From Streptomyces platensis (GTDB lineage Bacteria > Actinomycetota > Actinomycetes > Streptomycetales > Streptomycetaceae): a stretch of DNA of 64,000 bases. Positions 52,248-59,419 of this stretch are shown here, one piece after another. Location of the stretch: assembly GCF_008704855.1 (NCBI RefSeq), contig NZ_CP023691.1:6448001-6512000 (forward strand). The letters are read 5' to 3'. The notes below the pieces were generated by a model. It ran no database searches. It was given only the letters and a program-made list of their open reading frames with translations, and had not been told where the DNA came from. The number at the start of each line of letters is the position of its first letter. Positions within the stretch are counted from its first letter, which is position 1. Position numbers and translations under genes: made by a program.

Positions 52248-52922
52248 CTAGACCCACTCGTAGCGGTGCTCGGGGCGACCGGTCTCGCCGTACCTGAGTG
52301 TGAGGCGCACCCGCCCGGCGCGTTCCAAGAGTTTGAGGTAGCGCTGGGCGGTCTGCCGACTCAGGCTGGCCTGTAGGGCGACGTCTTGCGCGGACAGCGG
52401 GGCGTCCGCGGAGCGCAGCACCAAGCGGACGCGGTCGGCGGTGGCGGTGGAGTGCCCCTTCGGCAATTCGGCGGAGCCGGCGTTGGCGGCTCCCAACGCC
52501 CCGAAGATCCGGTCCACTTCGGACTGCTCCGCCTGCCCGCCGCCCGCAAACGTGCGGTGCAGTGCCGCGTAACCCTCCAACTTGGAGCGCAGGCCCGCGA
52601 AGGTGAATGGCTTGACGAGGTACTGCAACGCCCCGTGGCGCATCGCTGCCTGCACAGTGGCGATATCGCGCGCCGCAGTCACCATGATCACGTCGGTGAG
52701 CAGACCGCGACGCCGCAGCTCGCTGACCAGTTGAAGGCCCGTTCTGTCGGGGAGGTAGTGGTCCAGGAGGATCAGGTCGACAGGGTGCGTCTCGAGGGCG
52801 GTGAGGGCTTCCGCAGCGGTGTGCGCGAGGCAACTGACACGGAACCCCTCGATTTTGGCGACGTATGCCGCATTGATCTTCGCGACGTGCACATCGTCGT
52901 CCACGACCAGTACGTCGATCAT
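52248..52922 (-). CDS. CitB/DcuR-type response regulator
   Basis: A 224-residue regulator. The receiver has DVLVVDDD at 3-10, phospho-Asp in LILLDHYLPD near 54 and Lys in LVKPFTF near 104. The C-terminal HTH (DAPLSAQDVALQASLSRQTAQRYLKLLERAGRV) is of CitB/DcuR/DctR type. The gene overlaps its kinase by ATGA. Homologues activate citrate or C4-dicarboxylate uptake genes. Confidence 0.93.
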   Translation of the reverse strand: MIDVLVVDDDVHVAKINAAYVAKIEGFRVSCLAHTAAEALTALETHPVDLILLDHYLPDRTGLQLVSELRRRGLLTDVIMVTAARDIATVQAAMRHGALQYLVKPFTFAGLRSKLEGYAALHRTFAGGGQAEQSEVDRIFGALGAANAGSAELPKGHSTATADRVRLVLRSADAPLSAQDVALQASLSRQTAQRYLKLLERAGRVRLTLRYGETGRPEHRYEWV

Positions 52923-54820
52923 CGGCCCGCCTCCGTGGCATCTTCGGGGCGGCGAGAGCGTGCTACAGCCCATCTGGTGGCGTGGGTGTCCCGGGTTGCA
53001 TTCTGCGGGGCTGTTTCACGGGGCTCGGGAAGCTCCTCGGACAGTGCGTCGGGGACCGTCACGGTGAATACCGCACCGCCACCGGGGCGCTCGCCGACCT
53101 CGGCGCTGCCTCCGTAGCGCTCGGCGAGTCTGCGAACGAGCGCCAGGCCGATGCCGCGCTGCCCGTGGGCGGGTGGCTCCTTGGTCGTCCATCCCTCGGT
53201 GAAGATTTCCGCGCGACGTTCCTCGGGCACGCCCGGTCCGTTGTCGCTGACACGCACCACAGCGGTCCGGCCGTCAGCGCGGATCTCCGCCTCCAGTTGG
53301 GCGTCGCGCTCACCCGATGTGGCGTCCAAGGCGTTGTCGACGAGGTTCCCAAGGATGGTGACCAGGCTGGGCGGGTCGACCAGACGGTCGGGCAGGTGGG
53401 TATCGGGAGAGACGCTCAAGGAGACGCCGCGCTCGGTGGCGACGGTGGCCTTGCCCACCAGGAGGGCGGCGAGCAGCGGATCGTGGACGCGCTCGGTGAC
53501 CTGCTCGGCGGTCACGCGATGCACCCCCACAGCCTGTGTCACAAACTCGACGGCTTCCTCATGCAGCCCGAGTTCGAGCAGACCGAGCAAGGTGTGCAGC
53601 CGGTTGGCGTGCTCGTGGTCCTGGGCGCGGAGAGCGTCGATGAGGCCACGGGTGCCGTCCAGCTCGCGCCCCAGCCGCTCCAGTTCGGTGCGGTCGCGCA
53701 GGGTGACCACAGCACCGCCGTCATCGGTCGGCATGCGGTTCGCCACCAGGACTCGCTGCCCACTGACGGCCAGCAGGTCCGCCCCCGACACCCGACCGGC
53801 CAGAACATCGGTGGTGCGGCCCGGCGGCAGGGCTGCTTCCAGGGAGCGTCCGGTGTCCTCGGCGCGGAGATCCAGGAGGCGCTGCGCCTCGTCATTCATG
53901 AGACGGATGCGCCCGTGCTTGTCGAGCGCGAGGAACCCCTCACGGATGCCGTGCAGCATCGCCTCCCGCTCGGCCAGCAACGCGGAGATGTCAGAGAAGG
54001 CCAGGTCATGGGTGCGGCGCTGGAGGCGGCGGGAAACGAGATAGGCGGCGAGAGCGCCCACGGCGAGTGTCCCTCCCGCGTAGGCGAGCAGCTGGGGAAC
54101 GGTGGAGAGCAGCCGTTCCTGCACGCTTTCGTACGCGATGCCGACGGAGACGGCTCCCACGACCTTGCCGTCCTCGTCGCGGAGCGGGACCTTTCCGCGC
54201 GCGGACCGGCCGAGGGTGCCCTCGTCGATCTGCATGACGTCCTGGCCGGAGAGCGCGGCGCTCGGATCAGTCGAGACATGCCGCCCGATCTCGTCAGGGT
54301 CGGTGTGGGACCAGCGCACACCCCGCTTGTCCATGATCACCACGTACTCGGCGCCGGTGGCGGCGCGAATCCGCTCTGCCTCGTTCTGCACAGGTCCATG
54401 GCGCGTCGGGCGGGAGGACTCCAGGGCGTCGTCGAGGTGTGTCTCAGCCGCGGTGGTCTGCGCTATCGCGAGAGCGCGGCGCATCGCCTGGTCGTCGAGC
54501 TGCGCACTGAGCGGGGCAAGGAACAGGCCGGTTGCCAGTGCGGTGACACCGGCAGCGATGGCTAGCTGAACCATCAGGACCTGGGAGAACACCCGCCGCG
54601 GCCAGCCCAGCCGTGGCCGGGTACGGCGCGGCCTCGGGGCGGCCGGCTCTTGGTTGACCGAGGCCGTGGTCTCAGCGGCCGGTCGTCTGTCGGCCGCATC
54701 TGGGGCTCTGCCTGGTCTGTCGGTAGTCGTGCCGGGGCCTGGCGTGGCGGTGGGAAACGGTGCGAAACCCGAGGGCTCTGCACCGCTCGGGCGTGGAACC
54801 GAGTCTCCCTTTTCGCCCAT
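52919..54820 (-). CDS. CitA/DcuS-type sensor histidine kinase
   Basis: A 633-residue kinase. A ~75-residue Pro/Arg-rich cytoplasmic leader is unusual. TM1 is near 83-105, then an extracytoplasmic PAS-like sensor (about 106-235, with GAEYVVIMDKRGVRWSHTDPDEIG and GSVPLRDEDG-like blocks), TM2 near 240-260, a cytoplasmic PAS, and the SpoOB-like H-box RAQDHEHANRLHTLLGLLELG near 415. The ATPase domain follows (GNLVDNALDA, GIGLALVRRLAERYGG). ATG 54820 has no ribosome site; TACTGT lies 8 nt before it. Homologues sense citrate or C4-dicarboxylates. Confidence 0.92.
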   Translation of the reverse strand: MGEKGDSVPRPSGAEPSGFAPFPTATPGPGTTTDRPGRAPDAADRRPAAETTASVNQEPAAPRPRRTRPRLGWPRRVFSQVLMVQLAIAAGVTALATGLFLAPLSAQLDDQAMRRALAIAQTTAAETHLDDALESSRPTRHGPVQNEAERIRAATGAEYVVIMDKRGVRWSHTDPDEIGRHVSTDPSAALSGQDVMQIDEGTLGRSARGKVPLRDEDGKVVGAVSVGIAYESVQERLLSTVPQLLAYAGGTLAVGALAAYLVSRRLQRRTHDLAFSDISALLAEREAMLHGIREGFLALDKHGRIRLMNDEAQRLLDLRAEDTGRSLEAALPPGRTTDVLAGRVSGADLLAVSGQRVLVANRMPTDDGGAVVTLRDRTELERLGRELDGTRGLIDALRAQDHEHANRLHTLLGLLELGLHEEAVEFVTQAVGVHRVTAEQVTERVHDPLLAALLVGKATVATERGVSLSVSPDTHLPDRLVDPPSLVTILGNLVDNALDATSGERDAQLEAEIRADGRTAVVRVSDNGPGVPEERRAEIFTEGWTTKEPPAHGQRGIGLALVRRLAERYGGSAEVGERPGGGAVFTVTVPDALSEELPEPRETAPQNATRDTHATRWAVARSRRPEDATEAGR

Positions 54821-55694
54821 ACGAACGAACAGTAAGCGCGGCGGTGGTCGCGTGGGTAATACCTGATGGAGGGAATTCGGAGGGTGTCCGGGCGGCGACT
54901 GGGATGTGACATCTCCGCTCCCGAGCCTGGGGCCAGGGTCGGATGCGTGCCTCGCCGCGCTGTCGCCTAACCAAGGCGAACACCAAGATCCCCCGTGTCA
55001 TCACGATCGCCCATGCCATGACGCCAGCGGCCACACGAGGACGATGGCGCGACTCACGGCTGCCATGGTCGGCTCGTCCTGCTTGTGGCTTTTAGCCTCC
55101 GGTTCATCCAGGCGCCCCCCAGCAGGAGGCTACCGATGTGTCGGCGTCGTCTCGGCCGGCTGCTTGCCCGGCGACTGCCCGTCGGGCGGAAGGCGCAGGT
55201 CAGGTGTGCGTAGGCAAGGCCGGAGGAGCGCTGGGAGGAGTTATCCACAGGCCTTTCGGGTGCGGAGTGTGCGCGCTTAGCCTCGCGTGGTGAGGCCTAT
55301 TGGGGCCTTGTGTGGGGCGGTCAGGACCGCCAAGACGAGGGTGAGGCGCGCGGGTGCGTAGGAGGGAGCGGCGATGAGGTCGGCGGGGGATGGCTGCGGT
55401 GCATGGCGGCAGCGGTGGAAGGGGGTAAGCGGCGTACGGTTCAGCCGCCGAGGCGGGGCTTTGCGGGCTCGACACAGTTGGTCAGTGCGTTTCGTCTGCC
55501 GCTTCACCTGGTCCTGGGGGAACTCTGCGCTACCGGGGGACGGCACTGACGAGCCGGGCCCGGCGTCAGGTGGCCGGGGCAGCCGGCCCACACATGACCA
55601 TCGGCCCGGCAAGCGCGAAGCCCCGCACCTCGCGCGGGTGGGGGAAGCAAAGGCTGTTGGAGGGCTTGCGGACTGTCAGGGCAAGCCGGCGAGA
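54821..55694. other. Long intergenic region with a solitary DnaA box
   Basis: 874 bp with no convincing gene. At 54970-55060 on the minus strand, two overlapping frames encode hydrophobic fragments (SRAIVLVWPLAS, then AAGVMAWAIVMTRGILVFALVRRQ), which could be a decayed small membrane gene. A perfect DnaA nonamer lies at 55241-55249. The rest shows no structure I can name. Confidence 0.45.
55238..55251. promoter_or_regulatory. Solitary DnaA box
   Basis: GAGTTATCCACAGG, a 14-base exact copy of the right arm of the inverted pair near 35.06 kb, containing TTATCCACA. Confidence 0.65.
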
Positions 55695-56696
55695 TCACCT
55701 ACTGGCGGCGGCCTGGGGCGTCCCGTGAAGCATGCTGTTCGCCGCAGTGATGGAGACAACCGCCATACGCGCCGGTGGACCGAGCGGCGCACCACAGCTA
55801 GCGGGCGCCGCAGCGCCGTCGGCGCGCTGTTCGACGGCCACCTGCCAGGCACGCCCGTCGGAGTGCGCGACAGTAACGACCCAGGCAGGGGAGGCTCCCC
55901 CGACCGTCGCGCTGCTGGGCGTCCGGCTGTCGGCCGACTTGGGTTCGGGCCACATCGGGTCGGTCCGTACGACGTCGAGTGCGTCCGCCCGGTCCTCCCC
56001 GATCAGCCCGCGGACGGCAAGGTCAGCGGCCTGGCCCGGCCGGTCCCAGGCCGAGCGACCGCGGCAGTGATCGCTCGTGATCCGTCCGTCGCGCGCCGCC
56101 TCCACGGCCTCCTTGACCAAGGGCGCCGAGGCTCGTCCGTAGGCGTAGCCATAGGGGAGGACGAAGAGGGTGGGGGAGAAGCGGTGGCCACCGATGTGGG
56201 TGACCTCCCAGACCTCGGACCCGTCGGCGGCGAGCTCGGCCGCGAGCGGGCGGCCGAGCAGGGCACAGCAGCGGTCCCGCTTGCCGTTGGTGCAGACGAG
56301 AACCAGCGGCTCACCGATGTACGGCTCCCACAGACCGCGATGCTCTCCCCCACCCAGGGCCGAGAAGTCCAGGTCGAGGGCGGCCCGTGGGTCGGTGACG
56401 GTGGTCGTGCGGATCCAGGAGCGTCCCGGGGCGGTGTGGGCGAGGAACATTCGCCGCCGGGAGGTTTCGTGGCAGTCGGCGTGGCGTCCCGGCCGCCGGA
56501 TAAGGGCGACGCGTACGCCTGTCCCCTCAGCCGCGGCTTCGAGGGCCCGGCCGACATCAGGATCCAGGTGACTGTTCGTCAGTGCATGGGCGCCCCAGGG
56601 TCCTGTTTGCTCGATGAGCAGCCAGGTCCGGGCAGGCGCCGCGGTTCCGGCGAGCGATTCGGCCGATTCACGGGAAGCGGTGGCGCAGGTACTCAC
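55695..56696 (-). CDS. Sucrase/ferredoxin-like family protein, iron-regulated
   Basis: A 333-residue Suc_Fer-like protein, a thioredoxin-like ferredoxin family. Hallmarks are CATASRESAESLAGTA near 4-20, VLVCTNGKRDRCCALLG near 140-155 and THIGGHRFSPTLFVLPYGYAYGR near 172-195. GTG 56696 is chosen because an iron box carrying the -10 element lies immediately upstream; longer frames would translate through it. Without a leader the mRNA should be leaderless. Function: probably iron-sulphur redox, exact role unknown. Confidence 0.85.
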   Translation of the reverse strand: MSTCATASRESAESLAGTAAPARTWLLIEQTGPWGAHALTNSHLDPDVGRALEAAAEGTGVRVALIRRPGRHADCHETSRRRMFLAHTAPGRSWIRTTTVTDPRAALDLDFSALGGGEHRGLWEPYIGEPLVLVCTNGKRDRCCALLGRPLAAELAADGSEVWEVTHIGGHRFSPTLFVLPYGYAYGRASAPLVKEAVEAARDGRITSDHCRGRSAWDRPGQAADLAVRGLIGEDRADALDVVRTDPMWPEPKSADSRTPSSATVGGASPAWVVTVAHSDGRAWQVAVEQRADGAAAPASCGAPLGPPARMAVVSITAANSMLHGTPQAAASR

Positions 56697-56715
56697 ATAG
56701 GTGAGCCTAACCTCA
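56697..56715 (-). promoter_or_regulatory. Iron box (DmdR1/IdeR operator) with embedded -10
   Basis: 17 of 19 bases match the actinobacterial iron box TTAGGTTAGGCTCACCTAA (minus strand). The -10 TAGGCT (56709-56704) is inside the box and 7 nt from the GTG start codon. With iron replete, bound DmdR1 would block polymerase directly. Confidence 0.88.
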
Positions 56716-56889
56716 TCCGCCGCGAGTCGGCTCTCGGGTGGGCATCCAGGGGACGAGAGCGAGCGGAAGGGCCCAAGCGTTAGCGGGTGTCCCACCGCGT
56801 GAGTTCCGGCGATGCCAATATCGACGCCCACGCGTTTCGCTGGTGGCGTCAGGGTCGGCACTGCCCGGTACCTCACTCGCGGCTGCCTG

Positions 56890-58137
56890 TCACGGCAACG
56901 GTTGTGGCGGGCGGGGACCGTGGTACTGGCCGCTGGGGCGCATGCGGAGAGGGCGTTCGGCGTATTCCTCCAGGGCGTGGGCGATCCAGCCGGCCGTGCG
57001 GGAGATGGCGAAGATGGTTTCGCCTGCCTCGGTCGGCATGCCCGTCGAGACGGTCAGTACGGCCAAGGCCAGGTCGACGTTGGCGTGCAAGTCCGTGTGC
57101 CGGGCCGTTGTGGTGATCACTTGGTGGGCGGCCTCCAAGGCGAGGCGGGCCCGGGGCACGTCTTCCAGGAGCTCGAAGAGGGTGCGGGCCCGTGGGTCCT
57201 CGCTGTTGTAGAGGGGGTGGCCGAGGCCCGGTACCCGGCGGCCGGCCCGTAGGTGGTCGGCGACGACGGCAGCCGCGCTGCCGCGGTCCAGCACCTCCAG
57301 CAGCATCCGGTGGGCGAGCCCGCTCGCCGCGCCGTGCAGCACGCCGTCCAGGGCCCCGTAGCCGGCCGAGACGATCGCGTACGGATGGGCACGGGCCGAG
57401 GCGGCGACCCGGACCGCGCAGGTCGAGGCGGCGAGGTCGTGGTCGATGAGCAGGACGAGGGCGGCGTCCAAGACGCGGAGTGCCGCGGCGTCGGCCGGCT
57501 CGGTGGTCAGCCGTGACCAGAGGCGAGGCGCGAGTGAGTCGGCAGTGCATTGCTTCGGGGTGTGTGACGGCAAGGCGTCGACAAGGGTCGGGATGAGGGT
57601 GCGGGCGGTCTCCACGACAGTGTCCTCGGACAGGTCGAAGCGCAGGGGGTCGGCGGCCGCGGCGGCGATCACGGCGACCCGTAGCCGGTCCATCGGTCCG
57701 CTGTGGGCCGGCAGTGCCTGGACGGCTCGTTGGGCGGCGGCCAGGGCGTCCTGCGGTGCTGTGAAGCGAATGCCGGGCCGCAGCTCGCCGGTCCACAGCC
57801 ATTCGGCGACTTCCTCGTAGCGGTAGTGGGCGGCGAGTTCCGAGGTGTCGACGCCACGGAAGTAGCAGTGGTCGCGGTCGATCAGTGTGATGCCTGTACG
57901 GACCGCCAACTCGCCACCGGAGGAAGGAGGTTCGCGGCGTCCGGCACGGCGGGCGAGCGCGTCGACCTCCTTCGCGTCGAACGTGCTGCCGCGGCTGCCC
58001 GGCTCGCGGCGGCTGGTCAGCTGGCCGCGACTGACGTAGGCATACACCGTCTCCGGCTTCACGCCGAGCCGGTCGGCCGCCTCCCGGGTGCTCAGTCGCT
58101 GCCCGCCGGCATCCTGTGCTGCTTCTCGATCCGCCAT
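56890..58137 (-). CDS. Citrate synthase-like protein with N-terminal DNA-binding HTH
   Basis: A 415-residue fusion. Residues ~12-60 are an excisionase/MerR-type HTH (STREAADRLGVKPETVYAYVSRGQLTSRREPGS). Residues ~75-410 are a citrate synthase fold: DHDLAASTCAVRVA, GVLHGAAS, GLGHPLYNSEDPRA and NVDLAL with Asp355, so the catalytic His and Asp positions are kept. ATG 58137 is preferred to the TTG at 58173, which lies inside a palindrome. It is divergent from a second citrate synthase; the HTH suggests that it binds the shared promoter and senses oxaloacetate, acyl-CoA or citrate (inference). Confidence 0.88.
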   Translation of the reverse strand: MADREAAQDAGGQRLSTREAADRLGVKPETVYAYVSRGQLTSRREPGSRGSTFDAKEVDALARRAGRREPPSSGGELAVRTGITLIDRDHCYFRGVDTSELAAHYRYEEVAEWLWTGELRPGIRFTAPQDALAAAQRAVQALPAHSGPMDRLRVAVIAAAAADPLRFDLSEDTVVETARTLIPTLVDALPSHTPKQCTADSLAPRLWSRLTTEPADAAALRVLDAALVLLIDHDLAASTCAVRVAASARAHPYAIVSAGYGALDGVLHGAASGLAHRMLLEVLDRGSAAAVVADHLRAGRRVPGLGHPLYNSEDPRARTLFELLEDVPRARLALEAAHQVITTTARHTDLHANVDLALAVLTVSTGMPTEAGETIFAISRTAGWIAHALEEYAERPLRMRPSGQYHGPRPPQPLP

Positions 58138-58164
58138 GAGGTCACCGTATCCAGACCATCCATA

Positions 58165-58207
58165 TTGATTCAATCAACATTGACAAGTGTTGAGTCAAGC
58201 ATAGACA
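58165..58207. promoter_or_regulatory. Divergent citrate synthase promoters with clustered TTGA/TCAA half-sites
   Basis: An AT-rich segment with TTGATT-C-AATCAA (58165-58177) and TTGAC-N9-GTCAA (58180-58198). Six TTGA or TCAA words occur in 34 bp, with a seventh at 58214. TTGACA (58180-58185) plus TAGACA (58202-58207), 16 bp apart, form the rightward promoter; on the minus strand TTGTCA and TATGGA, 16 bp apart, form the leftward one. The palindromes overlap both. Confidence 0.75.
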
Positions 58208-58249
58208 GTCGGATCAATATTCGGGTGAGGAAGAGCAAGGAGAGCAGCC

Positions 58250-59419
58250 ATGCCGACCGCTGAGGTGAACGCACCGATCGACGCTCCCCGGGGGCTTGCG
58301 GGCGTCATCGTCACCGAGACCCAACTGGGCGACGTACGGGGCACCGAGGGCTTCTACCACTACCGCCAGTACTCCGCCGTCGAGCTGGCCACCGCCCGCA
58401 GCTTCGAGGACGTCTGGTACCTGATGTTCCACGGGGAGCTGCCCGACGCCGCGCAGCTGGCGGCGTTCAAGGCCGAGACCGCCGCGCTGCGCACGCTGCC
58501 CGCGGCCGTGCGGGACGCGCTGCCCGCCCTCGCCCATGCCGGTGCGCTCTCCGGTCCGCTCGCCGGGCTCCGCACCGCGCTGTCGCTGCTCGGCGCGACG
58601 GCGGGCTTCCGGCCGCTGTACGACCTCGACGCCGGCCGCCGCCGTGCTGACGCGCTTGCCGCCTGCGCCGCCGTCCCGACCCTGATCACCGCGCTGCACC
58701 GCCTCGGCCAGGGCCTGGCGCCCGTCGAGCCGCGCGCGGACCTCGGCCACGCGGCCAACTACCTCTACATGCTCACCGGTGACGAGCCGGAGCCGGAGCA
58801 GGTGCGGGCCATCGAGGCGTATCTGATCTCCACCATCGACCACGGCTTCAACGCCTCGACCTTCACCGCACGTGTCATCACCTCCACCGGTGCCGACCTC
58901 GCGGCCTGTCTCGTCGGCGCCGTCGGTGCGCTCTCCGGACCGTTGCACGGCGGCGCGCCCAGCCGCGCCCTGGACATGCTCGACGCCATCGGCACCCCCG
59001 ACCGCATCGATGCATGGATCCGTGACCGCGTGCAGCGTGGCGACCGGATCATGGGGTTCGGCCACTCCGTCTACCGCACCGAGGACCCGCGCTCCCGGAT
59101 GCTGCGAGGCATCGCCGAGCGGTTCGGTGGCCCGCTGGTGGAATTCGCCGTCCAGGTGGAGGCGAGGGTCGAAGAGCTGCTGGCCGAGCTCAAGCCCGGC
59201 CGTGAGCTGCACATCAATGTGGAGCTCTACGCGGGGGTCGTCATGGAGCTGTGCGGGCTGCCGCGCGAGATGTTCACACCCACCTTCTGCGCGGCCAGGG
59301 TGGTCGGCTGGAGCGCCAACATCCTGGAGCAGGCCCAGGATTCGAAGATCATCCGACCCGCGGCCCGGTATGTCGGGCCGCCCCCGCCGCAGCCGGTGCC
59401 CGGCGTCGTACCCCGCTAG
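58250..59419 (+). CDS. Citrate synthase (or 2-methylcitrate synthase)-like enzyme, catalytic Asp replaced by Glu
   Basis: A 389-residue citrate synthase-family protein without HTH. It has DHGFNASTFTARV near 200, GPLHGGAPS near 225, MGFGHSVYRTEDPRSRML near 265 and TPTFCAARVVGWSANILEQ near 345. The usual NVDFYS motif reads NVELYAG, so the catalytic Asp is Glu325. This might alter activity or specificity. ATG 58250 follows AAGGAGAG. Divergent from the HTH-fused paralogue, and the two may form a mixed complex or a regulated pair. Confidence 0.88.
   Translation: MPTAEVNAPIDAPRGLAGVIVTETQLGDVRGTEGFYHYRQYSAVELATARSFEDVWYLMFHGELPDAAQLAAFKAETAALRTLPAAVRDALPALAHAGALSGPLAGLRTALSLLGATAGFRPLYDLDAGRRRADALAACAAVPTLITALHRLGQGLAPVEPRADLGHAANYLYMLTGDEPEPEQVRAIEAYLISTIDHGFNASTFTARVITSTGADLAACLVGAVGALSGPLHGGAPSRALDMLDAIGTPDRIDAWIRDRVQRGDRIMGFGHSVYRTEDPRSRMLRGIAERFGGPLVEFAVQVEARVEELLAELKPGRELHINVELYAGVVMELCGLPREMFTPTFCAARVVGWSANILEQAQDSKIIRPAARYVGPPPPQPVPGVVPR

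Follow-up and report, generated by a model that had tools for sequence, protein, structure and literature searches.

A predicted transcription factor with a citrate synthase fold and its conserved operator opposite a second citrate synthase gene in Streptomyces platensis

The window analysed here comprises 64,000 nucleotides of Streptomyces platensis DNA (contig NZ_CP023691.1, positions 6448001-6512000 of an 8.5-Mb chromosome) and contains two divergent genes, one encoding a helix-turn-helix (HTH) domain joined to a citrate synthase fold (HTH-CS) and the other a citrate synthase (CS2). Judging from sequence comparisons, HTH-CS is very probably a ligand-responsive transcription factor, likely a repressor, which would sense through its citrate synthase pocket and bind an operator in the gap shared by the two genes. 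An enzyme-derived transcription factor at a palindrome had been proposed in an earlier note on this DNA, and the proposal is strongly supported: the fusion is monophyletic, recognition helix and operator are conserved across phyla, the operator disappears together with either gene, and it recurs at an unlinked target. With somewhat less confidence, we consider HTH-CS to be the founder of a family of widely distributed transcription factors whose citrate synthase fold senses oxaloacetate and acyl-CoA (or their condensation product). In several phyla, these factors would determine how strongly alternative C-C condensing pathways and acyl-CoA pathways are expressed. No account treating an HTH-citrate synthase fusion as a regulator was found in the open-access literature.

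The citrate synthase part of HTH-CS scores 220 bits against the Pfam family Citrate_synt (PF00285; cut-off 27), and a Foldseek search with this part of the protein retrieved solved citrate and methylcitrate synthases (E-values to citrate synthases down to 1.6e-15). The catalytic set His233, His268, His307 and Asp355 is complete. The combination of an HTH with a citrate synthase fold retaining catalytic His and Asp, as described in the earlier note, is thus borne out, with the enzyme fold and the DNA-binding domain on a single chain, as in trigger enzymes. Nevertheless, HTH-CS stays far below the cut-offs of all NCBIfam synthase families (best score 168 of 421 bits). An AlphaFold2 model built on an alignment of 44 relatives has a predicted local distance difference test score (pLDDT) of 92.9; values are low in the linker, which is flexible around residues 70-74. 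The HTH, modelled in isolation (pLDDT 80.6), belongs to the MerR-type winged HTH superfamily, and its nearest structures are phage Pukovnik Xis, DNA-bound BldC, SoxR and RacA. The Foldseek probability of these matches is close to 1; their E-values exceed 0.001, which is not surprising given the small size of the domain. Both HTH_17 and MerR_1 were matched by 30/30 scanned members of the family. The recognition helix of HTH-CS reads TVYAYVSRG, of which T-x-Y-x-YVSRG (T30, Y32 and Y34-G38) is invariant in all 44 members.

Close relatives of HTH-CS were present in 39 of the 396 genomes across the phylum, and a scan of GTDB genomes located the fusion in Actinomycetota (including Acidimicrobiia), Chloroflexota, Myxococcota, Gemmatimonadota and alpha-, beta- and gammaproteobacteria. 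All 44 representatives form a single clade (100/100) apart from CS2, Bacillus subtilis CitA, Thermus citrate synthase and PrpC, and a MerR/BldC-like winged HTH would have been fused to the citrate synthase fold once, anciently. The earlier label of HTH-CS and CS2 as paralogues does not hold in the sense of close paralogues: the two proteins share about 30% identity and belong to separate clades, and the tree rules out a recent duplication as the origin of the pair. By eye, the subclades of the two proteins hold many of the same taxa (e.g. Kribbella/Amycolatopsis/Gordonia/Enemella; f18/Chloroflexi/Gemmatimonadetes), a pattern that joint inheritance of the pair would produce.

The gap between the genes (58138-58249) has a length of 112 bp and a GC content of 46% within a high-GC genome. 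It was said in the earlier note to be crowded with TTGA/TCAA half-sites, and the count agrees with this: there are seven such tetramers compared to 1.55 expected, a number reached by none of 5000 dinucleotide shuffles. The palindrome TTGATN3ATCAA arises in 0.06% of the shuffles, and the 14-mer ATTGATNNAATCAA occurs in the gap as the single copy in the genome; it is absent from all 8 examined Streptomyces that do not have HTH-CS. In an alignment of Streptomyces gaps, ATTGATTnAATCAAyATTGACA and both -10 regions are conserved, while the remainder varies.

For comparison across phyla, the 200 bp upstream of 44 divergent HTH-CS representatives (under ~60% identity) were searched by an unbiased ranking of all 512 pentamer classes, with 255 upstream regions from the same loci as controls. 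The top class was ATCAA/TTGAT, found in 42/44 (95%) of the HTH-CS regions versus 38/255 (15%) of the controls, and the inverted repeat ATCAA-N2-TTGA was found in 36/44 versus 3/255 (Fisher 4e-35). The HTH-CS regions have a GC content of 57% versus 67% in the controls; this AT-richness accounts for part of the pentamer excess, but not for the preferred spacings N2, N3, N6 and N7. Written in the orientation of HTH-CS, the consensus derived by eye is GTCAAYRTTGAY-N2..7-RTCAAYAT. The comparison thus reveals a sequence-specific operator conserved together with HTH-CS, a further characteristic of trigger enzymes. The shuffles, the uniqueness in the genome and the conservation across phyla rule out a chance palindrome.

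In all nine divergent promoters with a recognisable TANNNT -10, the spacing from the -35 is 16-18 bp, and the half-site is therefore the -35 of the divergent promoter itself. This position of the half-site agrees best with a repressor that responds to a ligand. MerR proteins are often activators, and given its MerR-like HTH, HTH-CS could instead activate CS2 by remodelling the promoter in the MerR manner. We hold this to be unlikely: the half-sites overlap the -35 and do not lie between -35 and -10, as in the MerR family proper with its 19-20 bp spacer, and a spacing of 16-18 bp is normal and requires no distortion. On the other strand, the ATG of HTH-CS follows within ~12 bp of its likely -10, and its transcript is thus probably leaderless. 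An alternative TTG start at 58173 is disfavoured, as it would fall within the operator; the ATG at 58137, by contrast, has a conserved -10 upstream.

Natural losses connect the operator to the gene pair. Among 61 Streptomyces genomes, 36 contain HTH-CS, 36 contain CS2, 35 contain both and 24 neither. One Streptomyces (G027) has lost HTH-CS and kept CS2, and its CS2 promoter has retained the ATGGACAGTC region with the -10 but not the palindrome. This joint loss of HTH-CS and the -35/operator is compatible with a repressor or an activator. Conversely, in two Streptomyces with HTH-CS in which CS2 was not seen (G013 and G251), no palindrome is left beside HTH-CS. Two of the 35 genomes with both genes are rearranged. 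In G012 (L034), a large rearrangement splits CS2, with residues 10-102 beside HTH-CS and the remainder 4.5 Mb away; in G032 (L024/L060/L100), CS2 is inverted relative to HTH-CS with a copy of the palindrome at each gene, which is either a true inversion or an assembly error.

The palindrome TTGATTSAATCAA is also located upstream of an unlinked gene for a CaiB-type CoA-transferase in four Streptomyces (G003, G013, G016 and G033). Among 30 Streptomyces, TTGAN5TCAA is present in 9/16 CaiB promoters from genomes with HTH-CS versus 0/14 from genomes without (P=0.0008, uncorrected for relatedness), and in the close CaiB clade alone in 9/11 versus 0/3 (P=0.03, likewise uncorrected). The strongest argument for the CaiB site as a true target is an independent pairing: the same CaiB family is directly divergent from HTH-CS in Dermabacter, Pandoraea, Achromobacter and Paraburkholderia. 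Other matches of TTGATN3ATCAA in Streptomyces, some of them checked for a CaiB gene, look scattered. The CaiB-type CoA-transferase (L092:1541-2944; 40/61 Streptomyces), a candidate target bearing the unlinked palindrome in some species, has ~200 N-terminal residues that match no Pfam family.

CS2 matches Citrate_synt with 373 bits and NCBIfam PRK12350 above its cut-off. As stated in the earlier note, its catalytic Asp is replaced by Glu325. This is not a sign of decay, as the Glu is present in 30/30 CS2 partners and also in B. subtilis CitA (2c6x); HTH-CS keeps Asp at this position in 43/44, and the stretch preceding it is ~7 residues shorter than in the enzymes. A further citrate synthase of the same genome (L003, 5304020-5305033) shares the Glu at the position of the catalytic Asp and groups with the divergent partners of Solirubrobacter and Actinoplanes HTH-CS. 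Among the 86 classified loci, HTH-CS is divergent from CS2 in 55, from CaiB in 5, from an HMGL-type gene in 3, from prpB in 3 (in Stenotrophomonas, prpC was seen next to it) and, in a single locus, from leuB with CS2 behind it. The earlier note assumed that HTH-CS controls its paralogue. Control of the facing gene is strongly supported by the comparisons, but this gene need not be the paralogous synthase; other targets would be prpBC, CaiB, a homocitrate/Re-citrate-synthase-like gene and leuB. The HMGL-type gene (LDVTNRDGVQTAR...; L121, L122, L072 and L074) is nearest to homocitrate and isopropylmalate synthases, far below the NCBIfam cut-offs, and may encode a Re-type citrate synthase. What the targets would share is chemistry that condenses or activates C4 acids and acyl-CoA.

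The residues His233, His268, His307, Arg316, Asp355, Arg380 and Arg400, i.e. the catalytic His-His-Asp and the substrate arginines, are retained in 43/44 HTH-CS. This could mean that HTH-CS functions above all as a citrate or methylcitrate synthase and, in the manner of bifunctional trigger enzymes such as PutA and BirA, uses its HTH to regulate its own gene. We regard this as possible but do not favour it, given the shorter segment before the catalytic Asp and the one exception from Burkholderia peredens (L199:3998-5269), in which three of the residues are replaced (H233N, H268T and D355S), with HTH and operator still present. This protein could be a regulator that has naturally lost catalysis. 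Evidence from Caulobacter points in the same direction. CitB is reported to complement an Escherichia coli gltA mutant, whereas CitC does not (PMC7083601). A Caulobacter sp. locus (L193) has HTH-CS divergent from a Glu-type CS2, with identities to B. subtilis CitA that fit CitC and CitB, respectively (36% for this CS2; 37% given for CitB in PMC7083601). Based on identity and gene adjacency, CitC is likely the HTH-CS orthologue. Provided that this orthology is correct, CS2 of the Glu type would be an active synthase and HTH-CS no efficient synthase in vivo.

For the predicted ligand-responsive regulator, we infer a mechanism as follows. HTH-CS would form a dimer of the citrate synthase type and offer two HTHs to the inverted TTGAT half-sites of the shared gap. 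Bound to the -35 half-site, it would most likely block RNA polymerase at CS2 and probably also at its own promoter. Sensing would take place in the intact citrate synthase pocket: the open/closed state of the fold and the HTH spacing would shift in response to oxaloacetate, an acyl-CoA or a tricarboxylate product, and binding would be released or strengthened. The active-site conservation in 43/44 suggests a ligand among oxaloacetate, acyl-CoA, citrate and methylcitrate. Due to the prpBC and CaiB targets, an acyl-CoA or methylcitrate signal is as plausible as citrate.

Several observations weigh against this mechanism. The half-site spacing is not constant (N3, N6, N7), which a rigid dimer would need to accommodate; a few of the 86 classified HTH-CS loci have no motif; and 19/86 have another or no recognised divergent partner, some of them being at contig ends or missed by the search. 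As the catalytic residues are mostly conserved, HTH-CS may have enzyme activity. Finally, an electrophoretic mobility shift assay has shown MtrA to bind the corresponding gap of S. coelicolor (PMC12323332), and other regulators thus act at the gap. One could go further and assign the palindrome to such a regulator, with HTH-CS as an unrelated neighbour, as the shifted S. coelicolor intergenic probe has a predicted MtrA site, TTGACTTAACTGTCCA, that includes a TTGA half-site (PMC12323332). However, the motif accompanies HTH-CS into other phyla and partner contexts and vanishes with HTH-CS within Streptomyces, and the published MtrA site was not present in any locus examined. It is thus unlikely that MtrA is the sole owner of the site, and highly improbable that HTH-CS has no part in it. 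An overlap of the MtrA site with the HTH-CS operator, if true, would suggest competition.

By gene order alone, HTH-CS and CS2 occupy the positions of S. coelicolor SCO5831 (citA3) and SCO5832 (citA4), both of which are termed putative citrate synthases (PMC12323332). Downstream of HTH-CS and on the same strand, positions 52919-56876 (-) of the window contain a sensor kinase and a sucrase/ferredoxin-like gene, as judged by the order SCO5829-SCO5830; the order of kinase, sucrase/ferredoxin-like gene and SCO5831 matches PMC9739823. The coordinates of the features are listed in Table 1.

Table 1. Features of the HTH-CS/CS2 region (positions in the window)
Feature	Position	Strand	Basis or remarks
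HTH-CS	56890..58137	-	415 aa, start codon ATG at 58137; HTH_17 and Citrate_synt (Pfam) exceed their cut-offs
HTH-CS layout			winged HTH, residues ~14-67; flexible linker, ~68-82; citrate synthase fold, ~84-415
MerR/BldC/excisionase-like winged HTH (residues 14-67)	57937..58098	-	HTH_17 and MerR_1 matches; DSSP of model
TACGGTG, likely HTH-CS -10	58143..58149	-	CACCGTA conserved across Streptomyces; kept in G013 (CS2 lost)
Operator core palindrome ATTGATTCAATCAA (TTGAT-N3-ATCAA)	58164..58177	.	Streptomyces intergenic alignment; single genomic copy
Overlapping inverted repeat ATCAACATTGACA (ATCAA-N2-TTGAC)	58173..58185	+	arrangement kept across phyla
TTGACA, CS2 -35 and operator half-site at once	58180..58185	+	sequence; spacing in relatives
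Secondary half-sites TTGAGTCAA	58190..58198	+	sequence; TCAA part partly conserved
TAGACA, likely CS2 -10	58202..58207	+	TRGACAGTC conserved in Streptomyces alignment; kept in G027
Distal half-site ATCAATAT	58213..58220	+	complementary to ATATTGAT at 58162-58169
CS2	58250..59419	+	389 aa citrate synthase, Glu325 at catalytic Asp position

Citrate synthase is the entry to the tricarboxylic acid cycle, and a transcription factor derived from it could signal the oxaloacetate/acyl-CoA state straight to promoters. The members of this widespread family are annotated as citrate synthases, and their regulatory role seems to have been overlooked in annotation and in counts of spare enzymes. Due to its conservation, the operator lends itself readily to target prediction, and the predicted targets include prpBC, the CoA-transferase and the homocitrate/Re-citrate-synthase-like enzyme.

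Among known systems, the MocR/GabR regulators carry a winged HTH of the GntR type fused to a complete aminotransferase fold, which serves as ligand sensor. HTH-CS resembles them in joining a winged HTH to a complete enzyme fold with a proposed sensor role, but the fold is that of citrate synthase and the HTH is of the MerR/BldC type. In B. subtilis, the regulator gene citR is divergent from the citrate synthase gene citA, and CitR is a LysR-type protein. The HTH-CS/CS2 pair has the same arrangement of a putative regulator and a citrate synthase, and CitA, too, carries Glu in the position of the catalytic Asp (2c6x); in contrast to CitR, HTH-CS is itself derived from a citrate synthase. The winged HTHs of BldC, SoxR and phage Xis share the DNA-binding fold with HTH-CS but have no enzyme domain. 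Caulobacter CitB and CitC (CCNA_03757/03758) are encoded by adjacent citrate synthase-like genes like HTH-CS and CS2; CitC appears in the passages of PMC7083601 consulted as a non-complementing citrate synthase-like protein, where, unlike in our reading of HTH-CS, neither an HTH nor regulation is mentioned. Caulobacter CitA, according to the same passages, has a regulatory role independent of catalysis, as proposed for HTH-CS; CitA is catalytically active and has a negative effect on CtrA, and an HTH fusion is not described for it there, whereas HTH-CS carries an HTH. The trigger enzymes PutA and BirA likewise combine a metabolic enzyme fold with DNA binding and control of the same pathway (PMC6978683), but with other enzyme folds, while in HTH-CS the HTH is placed on a whole citrate synthase fold with putative enzyme activity.
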